Below, piece by piece: positions 1,936 to 11,477 of a stretch of DNA of 64,000 bases; position 1 is the stretch's first letter; each line of letters begins with the position of its first letter. Below the pieces are notes generated by a model that was not told the DNA's origin, made no database searches, and was given only the letters and a program-made list of their open reading frames with translations. The stretch covers positions 1 to 64,000 of the forward strand of contig JANWVR010000073.1 of NCBI GenBank assembly GCA_025056735.1, given 5' to 3'. Source of the DNA: Saprospiraceae bacterium (lineage in GTDB: Bacteria > Bacteroidota > Bacteroidia > Chitinophagales > Saprospiraceae). The translations under genes were made by a program, and so were the position numbers.

Positions 1936-1949
1936 GTGACTTTTGTCAC
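1936..1949. promoter_or_regulatory. Crp-type operator upstream of the cytochrome gene
   Basis: GTGACTTTTGTCAC is a perfect inverted repeat. Written as GTGA-N6-TCAC it has exactly the spacing of a Crp-family site (TGTGA-N6-TCACA). A near-identical site with the same spacing to a downstream promoter box occurs at 6173-6186, and a Crp/Fnr-family regulator is encoded between them. Its centre (1942.5) would be at about -41.5 if transcription starts at 1984, the class II activator position. Confidence 0.65.
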
Positions 1950-1972
1950 GAAGCGGCAGATGCAGCATTTCG

Positions 1973-1983
1973 GACTTTTGCAC
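1973..1983 (+). promoter_or_regulatory. Predicted -7 box of the cytochrome/SoxB-like operon
   Basis: GACTTTTGCAC contains nnnnTTTG and differs from TAnnTTTG only at the first base. The identical 11-mer occurs at 6210-6220, in both cases 23 bases after the Crp-type palindrome. The predicted start near 1984 gives a 5' leader of about 129 bases. No TTTG -33 element is seen, consistent with an activator replacing it. Confidence 0.55.
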
Positions 1984-2007
1984 GGGTTCCGCTTATTTGG
2001 GTTCTCT

Positions 2008-2027
2008 AAGTCTGGGTAGCCAGACTT
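2008..2027 (+). other. Leader hairpin before the cytochrome gene
   Basis: AAGTCTGG and CCAGACTT form a perfect 8-bp stem closed by a GTAG tetraloop in the predicted 5' leader of the cytochrome mRNA. It is followed by TCTTTGG rather than a T run, so an mRNA-stability or regulatory role is as likely as attenuation. Role not demonstrated. Confidence 0.4.
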
Positions 2028-2112
2028 TCTTTGGCAGGAGAGGCGAAGATTAGAGCGTTTTATAGTGAGAGCCTGCGGCGGTATTGGGCATGCAATTAAG
2101 GGTTTTTTGTCT

Positions 2113-3300
2113 ATGGAAAATGGAATTTACTATCCGGTCATGTGGTTGGTTGTTGGGGCGTTAGTGGTGGGCGTTTTGGTCGTTACGGGTGCGATGAATT
2201 ATGCTCAGCAGCGCCTGAGCGAAGAAGCTTTGCTGACGTCGGGATATCACCGCCACTTAGCCTTTTTGAGGAATATGCGTTGGGTGTTGTGGTCGCTTTC
2301 GGCGATTCTAACCGTGTGTGGCATTGGCGCCTGGTATTGGGAGCATCTTCGGCAGGAGGAAGCCATTGAGACCCGGCGGGCGCAGTTGATGCCGGTTTAC
2401 GATCCTCAGAAGTTTTGGGAGGCGCCGGATTTGTTTTTAGCTCATACAGACGACGAAGCTGACTTGATTGCCTATGGCCGCGATTTGATTGCCAACACGC
2501 AAGATTATTTTGGTGAGAAAGGCATCCTTCGTCCTGGCGCCATCAATGGTTTGAACTGCCAGAATTGCCATCTGGAGGCCGGTTCGAAGCCGTATGGCAA
2601 CAACTATTTCGCTGTGGCCAGCACGTATCCCCAATTTCGGGCCCGTTCTGGCTCGTTAGAGACCATACCTAAGCGGGTAAACGACTGTTTCGAGCGCAGC
2701 CTGAACGGCGAGCCGTTGGATACCAACAGCCGCGAAATGAAGGCGATTGTAGCTTACATGCGCTGGCTGGGTACTGGCGTGCCCAAGGGTGAAAAGCCGC
2801 GTGGGTCGGGCTTAGTGCAGGTGCCGTTTTTAGACCGCCCGGCCGATCCGGCCAAGGGAAAAGTCGTTTATGCAGAAAAGTGCGCTTCCTGTCATGGCCC
2901 TGACGGGCAGGGGTTGCCCATGCCCAACAGTGAGCGCTACTATCCGCCCTTATGGGGCGACAAAAGTTACAACCAGGCTGCCGGTCTTTTCCGCCTGTCG
3001 CGTTTTGCCGGGTACGTCAAAGCCAACATGCCGCTGGGCGCCAGCTACCAGAACCCTCAACTGACCGACGAGGAAGCCTGGGATGTGGCCGCATTCGTCA
3101 ATTCTATGCCGCGCCCAGGGCATCCCTTCCTGAAGACGGACTGGCCCGATATCGCCGGAAAGCCCTTTGACCACCCGTTTGGACCCTACGCTGACCCGTT
3201 CTCAGAGGAACAGCATAAATACGGGCCCTTTCAGCCAATTGTGGATTTTTACAAACAAAAAAATGAGCAGAAGGAAAAAGGAAAGCTCACGGTGAAATAA
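2113..3300 (+). CDS. TsdA/SoxA-like dihaem cytochrome c, membrane-anchored
   Basis: The 395-residue product has two predicted membrane segments (about 8-28 and 54-74), then a periplasmic part with two c-type haem motifs, CQNCH at 149-153 and CASCH at 257-261. The first haem region reads NCQNCHLEAGSKP, followed by YPQFRARSG and NDCFERSLNGEPL. This is the signature of thiosulfate dehydrogenase TsdA and related SoxA-like cytochromes, which join two thiosulfates to tetrathionate or act on other thiosulfate-type substrates. The second haem domain is an ordinary class I fold. I chose ATG 2113 rather than an upstream alternative at 2065, because it gives a clean membrane anchor. It is followed 24 bases later by a SoxB-like gene, supporting a sulfur role. 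Substrate is inferred. Confidence 0.8.
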   Translation: MENGIYYPVMWLVVGALVVGVLVVTGAMNYAQQRLSEEALLTSGYHRHLAFLRNMRWVLWSLSAILTVCGIGAWYWEHLRQEEAIETRRAQLMPVYDPQKFWEAPDLFLAHTDDEADLIAYGRDLIANTQDYFGEKGILRPGAINGLNCQNCHLEAGSKPYGNNYFAVASTYPQFRARSGSLETIPKRVNDCFERSLNGEPLDTNSREMKAIVAYMRWLGTGVPKGEKPRGSGLVQVPFLDRPADPAKGKVVYAEKCASCHGPDGQGLPMPNSERYYPPLWGDKSYNQAAGLFRLSRFAGYVKANMPLGASYQNPQLTDEEAWDVAAFVNSMPRPGHPFLKTDWPDIAGKPFDHPFGPYADPFSEEQHKYGPFQPIVDFYKQKNEQKEKGKLTVK

Positions 3301-3324
3301 CGAAAACAAGCAACGGAGAGAGAC

Positions 3325-5079
3325 ATGAAACCTACACCTGATACTCCTGCCCAGGCTTCAGCATTGGGCGAGCATCCGCGGCGCAAATTTTTGCGCAACG
3401 CCCTGATGGCAGGCGCAGGCCTCGCCCTGCTGCCTAACTTTGGCCAGGGGCGTTCGTGGCGCCTGGCAGATGATGAGGCGCCTCTGGAAGGCGCTCTTCC
3501 GCCTGAGGAGCCGCCGGCGCCGACACAAGACGGCGTGCTGACGCTGCTCCAGACAACCGACGTACATTGCCAAATACATCCGCACGACGAAATGTTCTGG
3601 GAAAACAACCAGCCTGTGTTCCGAAAAGCAGGTGGGTACGCGCATTTGGCCACTTTTTTTAAAAAGGTGCGGAAAAGCAATCCGAACACGTTCATCGTGG
3701 ACACGGGCGACATGTTTCAGGGCAGCGCGTTATCGGTCAAGACAACGGGCCGCGCTATCTCGCCCATTCTAAACGCGCTGGGCTACGACCTTTACCTGCC
3801 CGGCAACTGGGAGGTGGTCTATTACAAAAAGGCCATGCAGCAGCTGCTCGGCGGTCTGGAGGCGCCCAAGGTGTGTGCCAACATGTACCACGACCTCGGC
3901 AACGGGCAGAAAGGCGAACTCATCTTCCCGCCGTATTACACCTGGTCGCGTCTGGGCGTGAAAATTGGCTTCCTGGGCTATACCGACCCGTTGGTGCCGT
4001 TGCGGCAATCGCCCAATTACTCCAAAGGCATTATCTACACCAAGCCCGAAGAAAACCTGGCGTACTACGTCAGCGTCTTGCGCGAACAAGAGCAGTGCGA
4101 TATGGTCATCATCCTGGCGCATCTGGGGCTTTCGCAGCAAATTGCGTTGGCCAATCTGCCAGCATGCGAAGGCGTGGACTACATTTTCGGCGGCGACACA
4201 CACGAGCGCGTGCGCAAGCCCATCGTTTGTAAGTACGCCAGGGTGGTGGAACCAGGCGCCTTCGGCTCTTTCGTAGGGCGCTTAGATGTAGAAGTGAAGA
4301 ATGGCAAGATCGTCAACCAGCGCTACCAGCTCGTCGAGATAAGTCCGAAACGCTATCCGGCCGATACTGAGATGTCGGCGCTCATCAAGCAGATAGAGGC
4401 GCCGTATCTGGCGCAAATTGAGAAAGTTGTTGGCTACAGCAAGGTTCCGCTGTATCGCTACTTTGTCGTGGAAAACACAATTGATACCCTCATTCTCGAC
4501 GCGCTGGCCTGGAAGGTGGGTACGGATATCGTGCTTTCCAACGGCTTCCGCTTCTGCCCGCCGCGCGTAACGCCAGACGCTACGGGCAACATTCCCATCA
4601 CGGAGGGCTATCTGTACGACATGCTGCCTGTGGATGCTACGGTGCGCACGGCTAAGGTGCGCGGCAGTGTGCTGCTCAAGTGGTTGGAAAAAGAACTGAA
4701 CAACGTCTTTGCCAAAGAAGCCGACAAACGCTTTGGTGGCTGGTTGGTGAAGTTCCGCGGCATGGAAGTGGCTTTTCATGCTTTCGGCGAGATGGGGCAG
4801 CGTGTCCAGCGCGTCCGGGTGGGTGGCCAGCCGCTTGACCCTGAGCGCATTTATACCGTTGCGGCCTGCGAACGCGACGGGGACCCGGAAACCATGCTCT
4901 GCCGCATACCAGAGGTGTTCGAGGGCAAAAACCTGCCCTATACCCTGCATACCGTACTGCGCGAGTATTTAGCCAAACACTCGCCCGTATCGCCCATGCC
5001 CCGCGGCGACGCCCAAATTTTAGACGCTCCCCCGACACTGCTGACTCAGGTAAGCGGGGTGGACTATGCCTTCCATTAA
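3325..5079 (+). CDS. SoxB-like Tat-exported metallophosphoesterase (5'-nucleotidase family)
   Basis: The 584-residue product has a twin-arginine signal (RRKFLRN at 19-25, then a hydrophobic stretch), a calcineurin-type metal domain and a 5'-nucleotidase C-terminal domain. Metal-site motifs are visible: TTDVH (D79, H81), DTGD (D129), GNWE (161-163), AHLG (H266) and GGDTH (H293). The histidine of the usual GNHE is tryptophan, a change I recall from SoxB thiosulfohydrolases, the periplasmic enzymes that release sulfate from SoxY-bound thiosulfate. No SoxYZ is in the window, so it may act on another carrier or on a nucleotide. It directly follows the TsdA-like cytochrome and precedes a small membrane protein, probably in one operon. 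A plain 5'-nucleotidase is the alternative. Confidence 0.8.
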   Translation: MKPTPDTPAQASALGEHPRRKFLRNALMAGAGLALLPNFGQGRSWRLADDEAPLEGALPPEEPPAPTQDGVLTLLQTTDVHCQIHPHDEMFWENNQPVFRKAGGYAHLATFFKKVRKSNPNTFIVDTGDMFQGSALSVKTTGRAISPILNALGYDLYLPGNWEVVYYKKAMQQLLGGLEAPKVCANMYHDLGNGQKGELIFPPYYTWSRLGVKIGFLGYTDPLVPLRQSPNYSKGIIYTKPEENLAYYVSVLREQEQCDMVIILAHLGLSQQIALANLPACEGVDYIFGGDTHERVRKPIVCKYARVVEPGAFGSFVGRLDVEVKNGKIVNQRYQLVEISPKRYPADTEMSALIKQIEAPYLAQIEKVVGYSKVPLYRYFVVENTIDTLILDALAWKVGTDIVLSNGFRFCPPRVTPDATGNIPITEGYLYDMLPVDATVRTAKVRGSVLLKWLEKELNNVFAKEADKRFGGWLVKFRGMEVAFHAFGEMGQRVQRVRVGGQPLDPERIYTVAACERDGDPETMLCRIPEVFEGKNLPYTLHTVLREYLAKHSPVSPMPRGDAQILDAPPTLLTQVSGVDYAFH

Positions 5080-5106
5080 ACGCACCTCATCCGCACCTTC
5101 GTTGTG

Positions 5107-5331
5107 ATGAAACCATGGAACGACTGGAAAATCGTGCTCATGCTCTGCCTGACGATTGGCTTAGCGCCTTTCGTGCCCGAACCACACCTCCTGGGCAAAA
5201 TTCGATGGGTCGCCGGCGGCGCCGTGGGCATGCAGCCCATGGATTGGTTTGATTTGCTGATGCACGGTTTTCCGTGGTTACTTTTGCTGCGGCTGTTAAT
5301 CCTCAAAAGCGCAGCGGCCCTGCGGCGCTAA
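5107..5331 (+). CDS. Small inner-membrane protein of unknown function
   Basis: A 74-residue protein with two hydrophobic segments (about 8-24 and 50-68) separated by a loop reading GKIRWVAGGAVGMQPMDWF. It starts at ATG 5107 (a GTG lies just upstream at 5104), 27 bases after the SoxB-like gene, and is followed by the Crp-like gene. I recognise no named domain. The balanced composition, two membrane segments and tight operon position argue that it is real. A role as membrane partner of the cytochrome/SoxB-like pair is inference from position only. Confidence 0.65.
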   Translation: MKPWNDWKIVLMLCLTIGLAPFVPEPHLLGKIRWVAGGAVGMQPMDWFDLLMHGFPWLLLLRLLILKSAAALRR

Positions 5332-5408
5332 GCGGTGTAGAAAGGACAGCATAGCCCGGCCTTTGCGCACAAGCGCCTGAAATTCAAGGCTATTTCAATT
5401 TGAAAAGT

Positions 5409-6038
5409 ATGGAAAACTACCGTCACTTACTTCGCGATTTTGAAGAAGGGCTGCTGGCCGAAATGTTGGAAAAAGGCCGGATTATGGACGTAGAAGCCGG
5501 CCAAACGCTCCTGCAAAGCGGTCAACCCATTCGGAACACAATGATCGTGCTGGAGGGCCTCGTCAAACTTTTTCGCGAAAACGATGAGGACGGCAGCGAG
5601 TTTTTCATGTACCACCTGCACCCGGGCGATGGCTGTGCGCTTTCCATGATCTGCGACAAGACCTTCCGCGCCAGCTCTGTAACCGCCCGCACCGTAACAG
5701 ACTCGAAACTCTTAGTCATCCCTGTGGAACACACGGAAAACTGGATGCGCAACTATCGAACGTGGTACTACTTCGTCGTGCGCACCTACCGCCGACGCTA
5801 CGAAGAACTCTTAGAAACCATTGACCACATCGCCTTTCAAAACATGGACGTGCGCTTAGAGTTTTATCTGCGCCGCCACAGCCAGGCCTTAGGCACAAAA
5901 GTCCTGGAAATAACCAACACCCAAATTGCCCAAGAACTCAACTCCTCGCGAGAGGTCATCTCAAGGCTGATGAAAAAACTCTCCGACGCCGGCAAAGTAC
6001 GGTTGCTCAAGAATGGGATAGAATTGCTGAAGCTATGA
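5409..6038 (+). CDS. Crp/Fnr-family transcriptional regulator
   Basis: The 209-residue product has an N-terminal cyclic-nucleotide-binding-type beta barrel (about 20-110), a dimer helix (about 115-140) and a winged helix-turn-helix. The recognition helix reads SSREVISRLMKKL (about 179-191) with R181, E182 and R186 placed like the R-E-R triad by which Crp reads GTGA. It lacks the N-terminal cysteine cluster of oxygen-sensing Fnr (only C76 and C82), so the signal is unknown. ATG 5409 is preferred over TTG 5400. The gene lies between two matching GTGA-N6-TCAC operators at 1936 and 6173 and is the likely regulator of both. It may be transcribed with the upstream operon. Confidence 0.88.
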   Translation: MENYRHLLRDFEEGLLAEMLEKGRIMDVEAGQTLLQSGQPIRNTMIVLEGLVKLFRENDEDGSEFFMYHLHPGDGCALSMICDKTFRASSVTARTVTDSKLLVIPVEHTENWMRNYRTWYYFVVRTYRRRYEELLETIDHIAFQNMDVRLEFYLRRHSQALGTKVLEITNTQIAQELNSSREVISRLMKKLSDAGKVRLLKNGIELLKL

Positions 6039-6127
6039 GAATGGGAAATGAAAAATTAAAAGTGGAAAATGAGAAGTGAAGAATGGAAAAATGAAGAGCA
6101 GGAGGAGAGGTGAAAAATGAAGCGGAA
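6037..6127. repeat. Degenerate purine-rich heptamer repeat, copy B
   Basis: Immediately after the regulator stop the plus strand divides into 7-base units: GAGAATG, GGAAATG, AAAAATT, AAAAGTG, GAAAATG, AGAAGTG, AAGAATG and further degenerate units. The same kind of array occurs at 1886-1934 (opposite strand) and 39143-39207. It occupies the first third of the 298-base gap before the carbonic anhydrase gene. Confidence 0.5.
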
Positions 6128-6172
6128 GGGAGATATGTGGTGTTTCAAAACCACAGGAGCATTGCGTATGTC

Positions 6173-6186
6173 GTGATAAATGTCAC
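6173..6186. promoter_or_regulatory. Crp-type operator upstream of carbonic anhydrase gene
   Basis: GTGATAAATGTCAC is a GTGA-N6-TCAC palindrome with one mismatch. It matches the site at 1936-1949 and is placed the same 23 bases before an identical GACTTTTGCAC box. The centre (6179.5) would lie at about -41.5 from a start at 6221. Confidence 0.62.
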
Positions 6187-6209
6187 TCCTATAATGTTTG
6201 CTTTGATTT

Positions 6210-6220
6210 GACTTTTGCAC
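6210..6220 (+). promoter_or_regulatory. Predicted -7 box of the carbonic anhydrase gene
   Basis: GACTTTTGCAC is identical to the box at 1973-1983. The predicted 5' leader is about 116 bases. Within it CAACGGCG (6247-6254) can pair with CGCCGTTG (6298-6305), a long-range 8-bp stem of unknown role. Confidence 0.52.
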
Positions 6221-6336: not shown

Positions 6337-7050
6337 ATGCTGCGTTTTTTCCTTTTTTCTATTGTTTTAGTGGCGTTTCATCTGTCGCTGGGATGTCGGT
6401 TTTCTGGGGATGAAGACAAGCGTCCGGGAACGCCAGAAGCGGCGCTGGCGGCTTTATTGGACGGGAACCAGCGTTTTCTATCGGGTGCGCTTCGACATCC
6501 GCATCAGACGCAACAGCGCGTTCACGAGACGGAGCATGCGCAGCACCCGTTTGCAGTGGTTGTCAGCTGCTCGGATAGCCGTGTTCCGCCCGAAATCATC
6601 TTCGATGAAGGCCTGGGCGACCTCTTCGTGATCCGCACAGCGGGCAACCTCATCGGCGATTTGGAGCTGGGCAGCATCGAATACGCCGTAGAACATCTAG
6701 GCGTTTCGTTGGTGGTGGTATTGGGCCACACCGAATGCGGCGCCGTGAAGGCTTTCTTAGCAGGCGGAGAGTGCCATGGGCATATTCGGCAGATCGTGGA
6801 AGCGCTTATGCAGGAGCAGGAAGAGCAGCAAATCCTTCAGCACGAGGGCAAAAACCTCATGGCCTGCATCGAGGGAAATGTTGTTCACGGCGTAGCGCAG
6901 ATCCGGCAACAGCCTATTATTGCCGAAAAAATGGCTCAAAAGCAGGTGAATGTAGTGCCGATGATTTACGACGTCCATTCGGGTAAGGTTACCGTGTTGA
7001 ATGAGACGGCATGGCTCGAGCAACACGCTTTCTCCATCACCAGACAATGA
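6337..7050 (+). CDS. Beta-class carbonic anhydrase, exported lipoprotein
   Basis: Beta-carbonic anhydrases interconvert CO2 and bicarbonate. The 237-residue product shows the zinc and catalytic residues: CSDSR (C78, D80, R82), then GHTECG (H131, C134). It also has IRTAGN, typical of the family. Unusually for a beta enzyme, it starts with a hydrophobic signal ending in a lipobox (LSLGC, Cys20), so it should be membrane-anchored outside the cytoplasm. It is the first gene after the second Crp-type promoter and is followed by a secreted DsrE-like protein and a porin. A role in periplasmic pH or bicarbonate supply during sulfur oxidation is possible but unproven. Confidence 0.9.
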   Translation: MLRFFLFSIVLVAFHLSLGCRFSGDEDKRPGTPEAALAALLDGNQRFLSGALRHPHQTQQRVHETEHAQHPFAVVVSCSDSRVPPEIIFDEGLGDLFVIRTAGNLIGDLELGSIEYAVEHLGVSLVVVLGHTECGAVKAFLAGGECHGHIRQIVEALMQEQEEQQILQHEGKNLMACIEGNVVHGVAQIRQQPIIAEKMAQKQVNVVPMIYDVHSGKVTVLNETAWLEQHAFSITRQ

Positions 7051-7131: not shown

Positions 7132-7584
7132 ATGAACCGCTTCATGTATCATTTCGTCGGCGCCGTCATCGCCCTTATGGCTGTAGCTGTGTTTTCGTTT
7201 TCGAATGCTTTGCATACCGAGGGATCGCGAAAGAAGAAGACACACCGCATTGTTTTCCAGATCACGACGCCCGACACGAGCGCCTATCGCGCCCTGACGC
7301 GCCAGCTGAACAACGTCTTGGACCACTGGCCGGATGCGCGTGTCGAGGTGGTAGCGCATAACAAGGGCATCCACCTGTTAGTCAAGGATAAAACCAATGT
7401 GCCCGCCGAATTGAGCGCCCTCAAGAAGCGCGGCGTAGATTTTTACGCTTGCGAATTCACCCTCAAGCAGATGAACCTCGCCAAGGCCGACATCATAGCC
7501 GAGTCCGGCTACGTAGAGCGCGGCATCGTGCACATTGTTGAGCGCCAGGAAGAGGGCTGGGCCTACATCAAAGCGGGTTTCTAA
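7132..7584 (+). CDS. Secreted DsrE/DsrF-like family protein
   Basis: The 150-residue product starts at ATG 7132 with a membrane or signal segment (about 8-24). This is followed by a single DsrE/DsrF-type alpha/beta domain with HRIVFQIT, then a central part reading VEVVAHNKGIHLLV and a cysteine in the segment DFYACEFTLKQ. Cytoplasmic DsrE proteins carry sulfur on a cysteine. Secreted members of the superfamily are common in Bacteroidota, but their role is not established. It lies downstream of the carbonic anhydrase and upstream of a porin, within the sulfur-themed block. The family call is fairly sure. A sulfur-carrier role is inference. Confidence 0.72.
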   Translation: MNRFMYHFVGAVIALMAVAVFSFSNALHTEGSRKKKTHRIVFQITTPDTSAYRALTRQLNNVLDHWPDARVEVVAHNKGIHLLVKDKTNVPAELSALKKRGVDFYACEFTLKQMNLAKADIIAESGYVERGIVHIVERQEEGWAYIKAGF

Positions 7585-7648: not shown

Positions 7649-9076
7649 ATGTTAGATTTTTTTGTTTTCAAACGCACGGTGCTGTGGCTGGGGCTGATTT
7701 TAGGGCCTTTGAATTTACCCGCGCGCCCGATGTTGCGCGATACGGCTGCTCAGCCCGAAGAACGATTGCCGGAGGTCAGGACTTTGCTCCAGGCCTTTCA
7801 GAAGGGCCAGCACGGCGGGCAGTTTCGGACGTTTGTCATGGTAACCGACAATACGGGCCAGTTGTCGGATTACTACGCTTGGGCGGCGGGTGGGTGGTTG
7901 CACTTTCAGTCGGCGCCCTGGCATGGCTTCAGCATGGGTGTGGGCGGCGCGTTCAATTTCAATTTGCTCTCTTCCGACCTGAGCCTGCGCGACTCCGCCA
8001 CAGGCGCCATAAATCGCTACGAAATTGGCCTGTTTGATGTGGAAAATCCGCGCAACCGCAGGGATTTAGACCGGCTGGAGGAGCTCTGGCTCCGTTACCA
8101 ATGGCGCAATTCCCGCATAACGGTAGGGCAGCAATTGCTCCAGACGCCTTTGATCAACCACCAGGATGGTCGCATGCGTCCTACTGCAGAGGCGGGCGCG
8201 TGGTTGGAATGGAACGAATGGCGCCGAGTCAAAATCGAAGGCGGCCTGCTGTGGCGCATGTCGCCGCGAAGCACCGTGCGCTGGTACACCATTGGCGAGT
8301 CCATCGGCCTGTATCCGCGCGGCATTAACCCCGATGGCTCGGCCAGCGGTTATTCGGGTAACCTTAAAAGCGGCGGTGTTGGCTTAGTGGGGATTACGTG
8401 GAGACCAGACGAGCGTCTGACGCTACAACTCTGGGATCAATACGTAGAGCGCATCTTCAATACGGCCCTTTTGCGCGCAGACTACCAACGGCCTGTTGGG
8501 GGAAAACACCGCCTTCTCGCAGGGCTTATGCTCATCCGACAGGATGCTGTTGCGCACGGCGGCAACGAAGACCCCGCGAAGGCGTATTTCCCTGCGAGCG
8601 GTCAATCGGTGGCCTTCAGCACCCAGATGGGCTGGCAACGCGGCCCCTGGCGAGCCTTAGCCGCTTACACACGCGTTACAGCGCATGGGCGCTTCCTCTC
8701 GCCGCGCGAATGGGGGCGCGAGCCGTTCTACACCTTCATGCCGCGCGAGCGCATCGAGGGAAGCGGCGACTCGCACTCGATCACCGGGCGCATCCTCTGG
8801 TCTTCGCCCAACAGCCGCTGGCAAATGGAAGGCGCTTATGGGCATTTTTACCTGCCCGACATCAAAAATACGGCGCTCAATAAATACGGCTTTCCGGCCT
8901 TTCGGCAGCTCAACTTAGACGTGCGCTATTCCTTTGGAGGCGCATTGGAGGGCCTGCGCGGGCAACTCCTGTACGTCTGGAAGGGCCGCATCGGGGAGTT
9001 TTACGGCAACTATCGCCACGTCATCAATAAAGTGGATATGACGCACGTCAGCCTTGTGCTGAACTACACCTTTTAA
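7649..9076 (+). CDS. Outer-membrane porin-like beta-barrel protein
   Basis: The 475-residue product has an N-terminal signal (about 8-25) and a long series of alternating strands rich in aromatic residues and glycine, ending in LVLNYTF with a terminal phenylalanine, as barrel proteins recognised by BamA do. The body resembles OprD-type or general porins (for example GRMRPTAEAGAWLEW and repeated 'aromatic-x-x-G' turns). It has no TonB plug. It is 64 bases after the DsrE-like gene. A CACCTTTGC box ends only 4 bases before the ATG, so either the start is slightly later or the box is not used. Substrate unknown. An anion or sulfur-compound channel would fit the neighbours. Confidence 0.72.
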   Translation: MLDFFVFKRTVLWLGLILGPLNLPARPMLRDTAAQPEERLPEVRTLLQAFQKGQHGGQFRTFVMVTDNTGQLSDYYAWAAGGWLHFQSAPWHGFSMGVGGAFNFNLLSSDLSLRDSATGAINRYEIGLFDVENPRNRRDLDRLEELWLRYQWRNSRITVGQQLLQTPLINHQDGRMRPTAEAGAWLEWNEWRRVKIEGGLLWRMSPRSTVRWYTIGESIGLYPRGINPDGSASGYSGNLKSGGVGLVGITWRPDERLTLQLWDQYVERIFNTALLRADYQRPVGGKHRLLAGLMLIRQDAVAHGGNEDPAKAYFPASGQSVAFSTQMGWQRGPWRALAAYTRVTAHGRFLSPREWGREPFYTFMPRERIEGSGDSHSITGRILWSSPNSRWQMEGAYGHFYLPDIKNTALNKYGFPAFRQLNLDVRYSFGGALEGLRGQLLYVWKGRIGEFYGNYRHVINKVDMTHVSLVLNYTF

Positions 9077-10451: not shown

Positions 10452-11477
10452 TTAACATGGTGCGGCTGTCTGCACCACCACTTTGCCCACGGTTTTGCCA
10501 CTTTGGAACAGCAGGATGGCCTCGCGTATCTGGCTGAAATCGAAAGTATGGCCGACATGTGGAGGTGTCAGGTGCATATGTTCAAGGTGTTCCAGAATGG
10601 GCGGAAGCATCTCGATGCGTTCGTACAGGTAGATGAGGTTGAAGCCCAGGATGCCGCGGTTTTGTTCGGGCAGGGCTTGCGGATCTATCTTAGGGCGCGT
10701 CAAGAAATGCCATAGCAGTCGGAAGAGGTTAGGCCTGTCACCTACGCTGGCGTAGCGCGAGGAGCCGGCCACAATCATGCGGCCCATGGGGGCCAGCATA
10801 TTCCAGGGTATGGTAAAATAGCGGCCGCCTATGGTGTCAAAGACGAGGTTGAGTGGCCGACCCTCTAAAGCCTGGCGGAGTTCCTGCTCGAATTTTGGCC
10901 CGCGCACCAGCACACGATCGCAGCCGTTAGCCTGAGCAATAGCCACCTTGTTGGCGCTGCCCACAGTGCCGATAACAAAGCAGTTGTGGGCTTTGGCAAT
11001 TTTGAGGGCCTGCAGACCCACGCCCCCGGCCACGCTGTGGAGCAGTACGTTTTGTCCGGGTTGTAATGCGCCTAAATTGAAGAGACCGTAATACGCGGTA
11101 ATAGTTTGCACTAAATACGCCGCGGCTGTGCTGCAGTTCCAAGTATCCGGAATGGGTACCACATATTTTTCTGAGATATTTAGGCCGGTAGTAAAGGCAC
11201 CAAAGCGTGTGATACCCATCACGCGGTCGCCTGGCCGAATACTTGTTACTTCCGGGCCCACGGCCATTACCACTCCGGCGTATTCCAAGCCAGGCGTAAA
11301 CGGCTCTTTCGGAGCAGCTTTGTATAAACCCCAGATGGCAAAAATGTCGGCAAAATTCAGTCCGATAGCACGCACGGCTACCTGCACTTCGTCTCCTTTA
11401 GGGGGAGGCAGGGTATCGTCTTGAAGTCGGAGGTGTTTCAAAGAGCCTGGTCGGACAACGTATCGCTGGATTTCCAT
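10452..11477 (-). CDS. Zinc-free medium-chain oxidoreductase (quinone reductase / VAT-1-like)
   Basis: The 341-residue product is a medium-chain dehydrogenase/reductase. It has PGLEYAGVV and GDRVMGI in the catalytic domain and the Rossmann motif HSVAGGVGLQALKIAK for NAD(P)H. The catalytic-zinc residues of alcohol dehydrogenases are missing, which puts it with the quinone oxidoreductase and VAT-1-like branch. ATG 11477 (MEIQRYV) is preferred over an upstream start at 11498. The perfect palindrome at 11515-11534 lies 38 bases upstream, so control by a repressor or activator is likely. Physiological substrate unknown. Confidence 0.85.
   Translation of the reverse strand: MEIQRYVVRPGSLKHLRLQDDTLPPPKGDEVQVAVRAIGLNFADIFAIWGLYKAAPKEPFTPGLEYAGVVMAVGPEVTSIRPGDRVMGITRFGAFTTGLNISEKYVVPIPDTWNCSTAAAYLVQTITAYYGLFNLGALQPGQNVLLHSVAGGVGLQALKIAKAHNCFVIGTVGSANKVAIAQANGCDRVLVRGPKFEQELRQALEGRPLNLVFDTIGGRYFTIPWNMLAPMGRMIVAGSSRYASVGDRPNLFRLLWHFLTRPKIDPQALPEQNRGILGFNLIYLYERIEMLPPILEHLEHMHLTPPHVGHTFDFSQIREAILLFQSGKTVGKVVVQTAAPC

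Follow-up and report, generated by a model that had tools for sequence, protein, structure and literature searches.

The gene at positions 5409 to 6038 of contig JANWVR010000073.1 from Saprospiraceae bacterium (assembly GCA_025056735.1; the 64,000 nucleotides (nt) analysed here are called the window) encodes a regulator of the Crp/Fnr family. This protein is likely to be a class II activator of a regulon for the oxidation of reactive sulfur and is probably thiol-sensing, a reading to which we give a probability of roughly 0.85. Two promoters flank the gene, each with a GTGAN6TCAC palindrome at the same distance from a -7 box. The architecture of these sites, their conservation, the content of the regulon and the pairing of regulator with site are established at the level of sequence.

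In the mechanism that we propose, a dimer of the regulator would bind GTGAY-N4-RTCAC with the downstream edge of the site at the position of the -33 box of a housekeeping promoter, and would help RNA polymerase at a weak AnnTTTG box; the start site is predicted. The regulator would turn on its own operon from site 1 and the carbonic anhydrase/DsrE/porin operon from site 2; four further promoters of the same genome would probably be switched on by it as well. Positive autoregulation is expected because the regulator gene lies within operon 1. The gene set would oxidise and move the sulfur of thiosulfate, persulfide and sulfite, and the signal, instead of cyclic adenosine monophosphate (cAMP), would most likely be reactive sulfur species that act through C76 and C82.

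Architecture of the two promoters

The features of the window that concern the regulon are as follows.

1936..1949, + strand: activator site 1, GTGACTTTTGTCAC (predicted; GTGAN6TCAC palindrome)
1973..1980, + strand: -7 box of promoter 1, GACTTTTG (nAnnTTTG form; spacing kept genus-wide)
2113..3300, + strand: dihaem cytochrome c, SoxA/TsdA type (PF21342 42.3 bits, PF00034 56.5 bits)
3325..5079, + strand: SoxB-like protein, 5'-nucleotidase fold (PF02872, PF00149; twin-arginine-like leader)
5107..5331, + strand: small protein, probably membrane (present in 3/3 nearest relatives)
5409..6038, + strand: Crp/Fnr-family regulator (PF00027, PF13545; helix S180-R-E-V-I-S-R186)
6173..6186, + strand: activator site 2, GTGATAAATGTCAC (predicted; GTGAN6TCAC palindrome)
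6210..6217, + strand: -7 box of promoter 2, GACTTTTG (kept in nearest relatives)
6337..7050, + strand: beta-carbonic anhydrase, lipoprotein-like leader (PF00484)
7132..7584, + strand: DsrE/DsrF-like protein, probably secreted (PF02635)
7649..9076, + strand: OprD-like porin (PF03573)

Promoter 1 lies upstream of the cytochrome, SoxB-like, small protein and regulator genes, in that order, and promoter 2 upstream of the carbonic anhydrase, DsrE-like and OprD-like porin genes, likewise in that order. The initial annotation had described both palindromes and, after each, the 11-mer GACTTTTGCAC (1973-1983 and 6210-6220); these coordinates are exact, and a direct check found the same 23-base gap between palindrome and 11-mer at both promoters. 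The 11-mer is present twice as described, its identity being partly coincidence, as relatives keep only AnnTTTG; the idea that it is significant as a whole was rejected on this ground. The consensus of the two promoters is GTGAY-N4-RTCAC, 27 nt, TTTG. GTGAN6TCAC occurs three times in the window, with 0.64 occurrences expected from shuffling. The third palindrome, GTGATACCCATCAC at 11209-11222, is probably due to chance because it has no place among the matches in which a -7 box follows at the conserved distance.

Sites elsewhere in the genome

The pattern GTGAN6TCAC-N{10,40}-ACTTTTG finds only the two places in the window, both with the same spacing, in the 3.74 Mb genome, and none in a reversed control. 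The bare palindrome is only mildly enriched, with 31 places genome-wide and 23 for its reversed control. A refined pattern taken from the relatives described below (GTGAY-N4-RTCAC, 24 nt, A, 2 nt, TTTG; at most one mismatch) has eight matches, six of them exact, and one match in the reversed control. The genome scan that had been suggested as a check of the initial annotation thus returned six exact sites. Together with the conservation and the recognition helix described below, it supports the claim that the intervening gene drives both promoters. The regulon had been called small; it appears larger, with six perfect promoters in this genome and recurrence in many Bacteroidota.

The four exact sites outside the window are on contigs C49, C52, C82 and C106. 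The first is upstream of a metallo-beta-lactamase (MBL)-rhodanese gene, the second of a SulP permease with a STAS domain and the third of two successive rhodanese-domain proteins. On C49 (L277:2134-3551), DNA-methyltransferase-like frames stand between the MBL-rhodanese and the Sulf_transp (YeeE-type) genes, as if inserted. A one-mismatch site on C56, with TTTA for TTTG, is followed by an iron-sulfur/NrfD fusion, a molybdopterin oxidoreductase and a second SulP permease. By content this set resembles a sulfur-oxyanion enzyme; no NCBIfam model scores above its cut-off in it. The match on C132 is the sole one-mismatch match in this genome with a 26-nt spacer.

Conservation in the nearest relatives and the genus

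The nearest relatives are G035, G002 and G011, whose regulators are 93, 91 and 89% identical to that of the window, the most similar among the 60 genomes searched. Conservation in relatives had been proposed as a further check. Both promoters precede the orthologous operons in all three genomes with no mismatch to GTGAY-N4-RTCAC, the flanks and spacers have diverged, and the palindrome and AnnTTTG remain. Only one of these six promoters (G035 site 1) has a 26-nt spacer; the other five have 27 nt. In G002 (L188) promoter 1 stands directly before the small-protein/regulator pair; the SoxB-like protein is absent from that genome (0 matches), and there is no tsdA-like gene on that contig.

A scan of 41 genomes of the genus, in which 21 spacings were allowed, gave 141 matches. 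Two spacings, 26 nt (27 matches) and 27 nt (78 matches), account for 105 of these, with 36 matches at the remaining 19 spacings together and 16 in total for the reversed control. The binomial p-value for this bias is about 1e-75, which overstates the case because the genomes are related. The base at -11, which the pattern left free, is A in 100 of the 105 on-spacing sites. Downstream genes, called by a crude method that takes the longest open reading frame, include MBL-rhodanese, TauE/SafE, YeeE-type sulfur transporters, DUF6691, OprD-like porins, TsdA-like cytochromes, SulP, DsrE, thioredoxin and pyridine-nucleotide oxidoreductase. The OprD-like porin cluster is the first gene cluster after 13 of the 105 sites. 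The genes after some on-spacing sites, such as those for DUF983 proteins and unmatched frames, have no obvious connection with sulfur.

The sites go together with the regulator in the 37 genus genomes searched for both. Where a relative of the regulator reaches 43% identity or more (22 genomes), the median is 3.5 on-spacing sites; in the 15 genomes without one it is 1 (p=0.0009). Numbers of off-spacing matches show no difference between the two groups (p=0.78).

Loci in other Bacteroidota

The wider set consists of the best 80 of at least 586 stretches encoding regulator relatives, taken from named genomes by a scan based on the regulator alignment. It covers Saprospiraceae, Chitinophagaceae, Pedobacter, Flavobacterium, Aquirufa and others. 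Exact palindromes number 168 in these loci, counting both strands, and the reversed pattern gives 2. The distance between an exact palindrome and TTTG is 26 or 27 nt in 67 cases, and 13 cases fall at the 24 other distances. With at most one mismatch, 58 of the 80 loci have a site no more than 350 bp away on the 3' side of the regulator gene, among them L207 from the soil strain Pedobacter nyackensis DSM 19625; any of 24 other spacings gives 3 of the 80. A frequent form of the site in Flavobacterium is GTGATAAATGTTAC.

There are 137 sites in these loci, 129 with a same-strand gene and 8 without one that were kept in the total; genes were called by the same crude method. The first gene is MBL-rhodanese at 56 sites and TauE/SafE at 50, a count in which regulator-adjacent genes are over-represented because the loci were selected for the regulator. 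By sequence likeness, 106 of the 137 sites therefore precede genes of the kind that defines a reactive-sulfur regulon, in which one regulator governs persulfide dioxygenase, TauE and YeeE-type genes. The same set of sites before reactive-sulfur genes appears to recur across many Bacteroidota.

Position of the site and proposed class II activation

Class II activators sit at about -41.5. The initial annotation placed both palindromes at this position by means of an assumed start. Mapping in Flavobacterium psychrophilum puts TAnnTTTG at -12 to -5 (PMC9723704, in excerpt). On that scale the palindrome ends near the -33 region, with its centre at -41.5 when the spacer is 26 nt and at -42.5 when it is 27 nt, so that the earlier value holds for the 26-nt version and the window sites are at -42.5. 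The -33 element of Bacteroides is TTTG and was not found in F. johnsoniae, according to an excerpt of PMC7366714.

A class II site lies at a fixed distance and overlaps the upstream promoter element, and the present site lies 26 or 27 nt before TTTG, relative to a predicted start. TTTG is not conserved just after the palindrome at the genus sites. Among sites with A at -11, T occupies -12 in 17 of 100 in the genus and 42 of 133 in the wider set; counts of nAnnTTTGY at vegetative promoters in the genus loci do not show the T of TAnnTTTG. The near-fixed spacing, the lack of a conserved TTTG after the palindrome and the lack of T at -12 fit a promoter that needs an activator; the best fit would be a class II activator that makes up for the weakness of the promoter.

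DNA recognition

The regulator scores 45.8 bits against PF00027 (cut-off 27.5) and 33.2 bits against PF13545 (cut-off 27), which places it in the Crp/Fnr superfamily. R181, E182 and R186 had been named as the Crp residues in its recognition helix; the numbering is right for a start at 5409, and the three residues align with R180, E181 and R185 of Escherichia coli CRP. The label Crp-type suits the reading of DNA and does not extend to the signal, for which the cAMP contacts are not kept. The half-site of CRP is TGTGA, from which GTGAY differs. Five proteins of the genome exceed Pfam's cut-off for the Crp helix-turn-helix. Only the window's regulator has an R-E-x-x-x-R helix; the other four have SRQTVTS, AKETLIR, SRQTVTA and SRQMVTA.

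Residue 182 covaries with the site, which is stronger evidence than the helix alone. Of 193 distinct regulator loci, 135 have E and 58 have V at this position; the set was obtained from 199 loci by removing six duplicates between collections (which reduced the E182 sites from 93 to 88). At the 88 sites near E182 genes the third base of the half-site is G in both halves in 53 cases and in one half in 35; none of these sites has A in both. All five sites near V182 genes are GTAAC-N4-GTTAC, a form found at 0 of the 88 E182 sites. Fisher's test with duplicates removed gives p=1.9e-8, a value that overstates independence because many E182 sites are related by descent. By the taxonomic labels of their genomes, the five V182 cases span five genera and four families. 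One genome, G264, has both an E182 and a V182 regulator, each with a site of the matching kind next to it (L327, L343). When the palindrome is matched more loosely, 16 examples with the working spacing lie near V182 genes, and 10 of these start with GTAAC. In CRP, the change E181V moves the same base pair from G:C to A:T; Ebright is said to have described such a specificity change in laboratory CRP mutants in 1984. The sequence evidence ties the regulator to GTGAY-N4-RTCAC sites.

Paralogues of about 35% identity have the recognition helix SPREAISR in some cases and TARAVASR in others. G007 and G009 (L173, L174) have no close orthologue of the regulator; each has a Crp/Fnr paralogue of 35-36% identity with the helix SPREAISR about 5 kb from a site, which suggests that regulators have been swapped over one regulon.

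Probable signal

The cAMP contacts of CRP are E72 and R82. In the alignment E72 falls opposite a gap in the regulator, and the relatives included do not conserve R82, so the protein does not qualify as CRP proper. On this ground cAMP was rejected as the likely signal, although class III nucleotide cyclases are encoded in the genome (six Pfam hits on five contigs).

C76 and C82 are the only cysteines of the regulator, in a segment that we take to align to the phosphate-binding cassette of CRP. Both are invariant in 29 of 29 and in 80 of 80 aligned relatives; the scan for the 80 loci used a pattern that concerned the helix, not the cysteines. In the 193 wider relatives C76 is always kept, and C82 is kept in 154. 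FNR uses four cysteines for its 4Fe-4S cluster, and with two the regulator is not an FNR proper. HcpR is a Crp/Fnr protein that responds to nitric oxide, binds haem and has hcp as its target. Given a regulon like those under persulfide-responsive regulators in other bacteria (PMC7315123, in excerpt), the most likely signal would be reactive sulfur species, sensed at C76 and C82, rather than cAMP.

Weighing of the alternatives

It is unlikely that the site is a repression operator, at which the regulator blocks the promoter until reactive sulfur frees it. Overlap with the -33 region would serve a repressor too; the 26/27-nt spacing and the absence of both TTTG after the palindrome and T at -12 suit a promoter that needs activation. 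Sensing of oxygen or nitric oxide, with sulfur genes tracking respiration as under Fnr or HcpR, is a little less probable still. Family membership speaks for it, and S185-R186 presumably resembles the DNA-reading residues of Fnr; two cysteines do not make an Fnr-type four-cysteine cluster, and the gene content is that of sulfane-sulfur handling. We regard an ordinary cAMP receptor, which would make the sulfur genes follow carbon supply, as very improbable. It would account for recognition residues identical to those of E. coli CRP and for the cyclases, but not for the gap at E72, the unconserved R82 or the sulfur-specific genes. Binding of both window sites by another Crp/Fnr paralogue is equally hard to credit: four other candidates exceed the cut-off in this genome, and G007 and G009 show a paralogue near a site where the close orthologue is absent, but none of the four has R-E-x-x-x-R and the covariation between residue and base tracks this regulator family.

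Several observations weigh against a class II activator of a reactive-sulfur regulon. The exact site on C106 (L279:1816-2088) is upstream of a small protein with a TFIIB-type Zn-ribbon, for which a part in sulfur handling is not apparent, and the one-mismatch matches on C144 and C132 precede no evident sulfur gene. G021 (8 sites) and G030 (4 sites) have no close orthologue of the regulator, so another regulator may use the site there; the paralogue in G021 is on a contig other than that of its sites. A site within 350 bp 3' of the regulator is lacking, at the one-mismatch threshold, in 22 of the 80 wider loci, several of which (for example L198, L201 and L202) have the palindrome but an altered box. 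Five cases carry the covariation, because a matching site stands near the gene in only 5 of the 58 V182 loci and no such site does in the other 53; one looser V182 palindrome (L292, CTGAT..ATCAG) retains G in each half. Of the 193 wider relatives, 39 have another residue in place of C82, and the T of TAnnTTTG is not conserved.

Relation to known systems

The likeness to class II promoters of E. coli CRP lies in the aligned R180/E181/R185 and in a site overlapping the upstream promoter element at about -41.5; the differences are the loss of E72 and R82, the Bacteroidota -7 box and the sulfur-handling genes. The closest solved sequence is the Crp/Fnr-family structure 3DV8 (E 2.3e-30 with the family profile), which we take to come from a Firmicute. 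Its residues at the positions of C76 and C82 are both cysteines, its helix contains R-E, and its record names no function.

BigR is an ArsR-type protein, and SqrR and SoxR belong to families other than Crp/Fnr. The FisR and BigR regulons of Acinetobacter baumannii contain the same kind of genes as the regulon here (persulfide dioxygenase, TauE and YeeE/YedE), and BigR uses a cysteine pair; unlike the present Crp/Fnr protein, FisR is an activator of the sigma-54 type, and BigR is a repressor from a different family (PMC7315123, in excerpt). SqrR and SoxR are thiol-based regulators of sulfide and sulfur oxidation, and they likewise control sulfur genes in response to sulfane sulfur or polysulfide; SoxR differs in being, by the title, a repressor (PMC9995734, PMC10451225, in excerpt). 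A scan of Crp/Fnr regulons in a wastewater microbiome treats motifs of FNR, DNR, NnrR, MalR and CRP, and the words 'Bacteroidetes' and 'Bacteroidota' do not occur in its main text (PMC8510549, in excerpt). Class II activation by Crp/Fnr proteins and reactive-sulfur regulons are each known already. Among the literature matches listed, no title or opening of an abstract names a Crp/Fnr reactive-sulfur regulator in Bacteroidota or the combination of the two in a Cx5C Crp/Fnr subfamily of this phylum, nor do these parts contain an account of sulfide or persulfide sensing in Bacteroidota.

We consider it slightly better than an even chance that this is the reactive-sulfur sensor proper to Bacteroidota, with a Cx5C thiol pair replacing cAMP binding, a phylum-wide class II regulon for the oxidation of persulfide, thiosulfate and sulfite, and a natural specificity switch between paralogues (E182 to V, GTGAC to GTAAC). 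Such a switch would be a naturally evolved counterpart to that of the laboratory CRP mutants. The analysis offers a regulator, a base-exact predicted site, a candidate regulon and two candidate sensing residues, which are testable in soil and freshwater strains, as well as a promoter type that seems to need its activator.

Gene products and spacer length

The start of the cytochrome (ATG 2113) was picked by alignment with relatives. The protein has two CxxCH motifs and is probably membrane-anchored; it matches the Pfam SoxA-TsdA domain and scores 39.5 bits against the NCBIfam SoxA equivalog, below the cut-off of 110. The name of the SoxB-like protein expresses no more than a likeness, since the protein reaches 248.8 bits against the NCBIfam SoxB equivalog, whose cut-off is 550. 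The small protein at 5107-5331 has no family match in Pfam or NCBIfam.

The preferred spacer differs by one base between the window's genus (27 nt) and the wider relatives (26 nt). It is 26 nt in 120 and 27 nt in 17 of the 137 wider sites; in the five loci closest to the window's regulator (L190-L194), it is 27 nt in 8 of 11 sites. One palindrome (G062:C192:9602-9678, L165) is flanked by TTTGC on both sides, 26 nt away on one and 27 nt away on the other, and looks as if it serves two divergent promoters, of a ferritin-like gene and a porin gene. Six other palindromes are boxed on both sides, but not at 26/27 nt on both.

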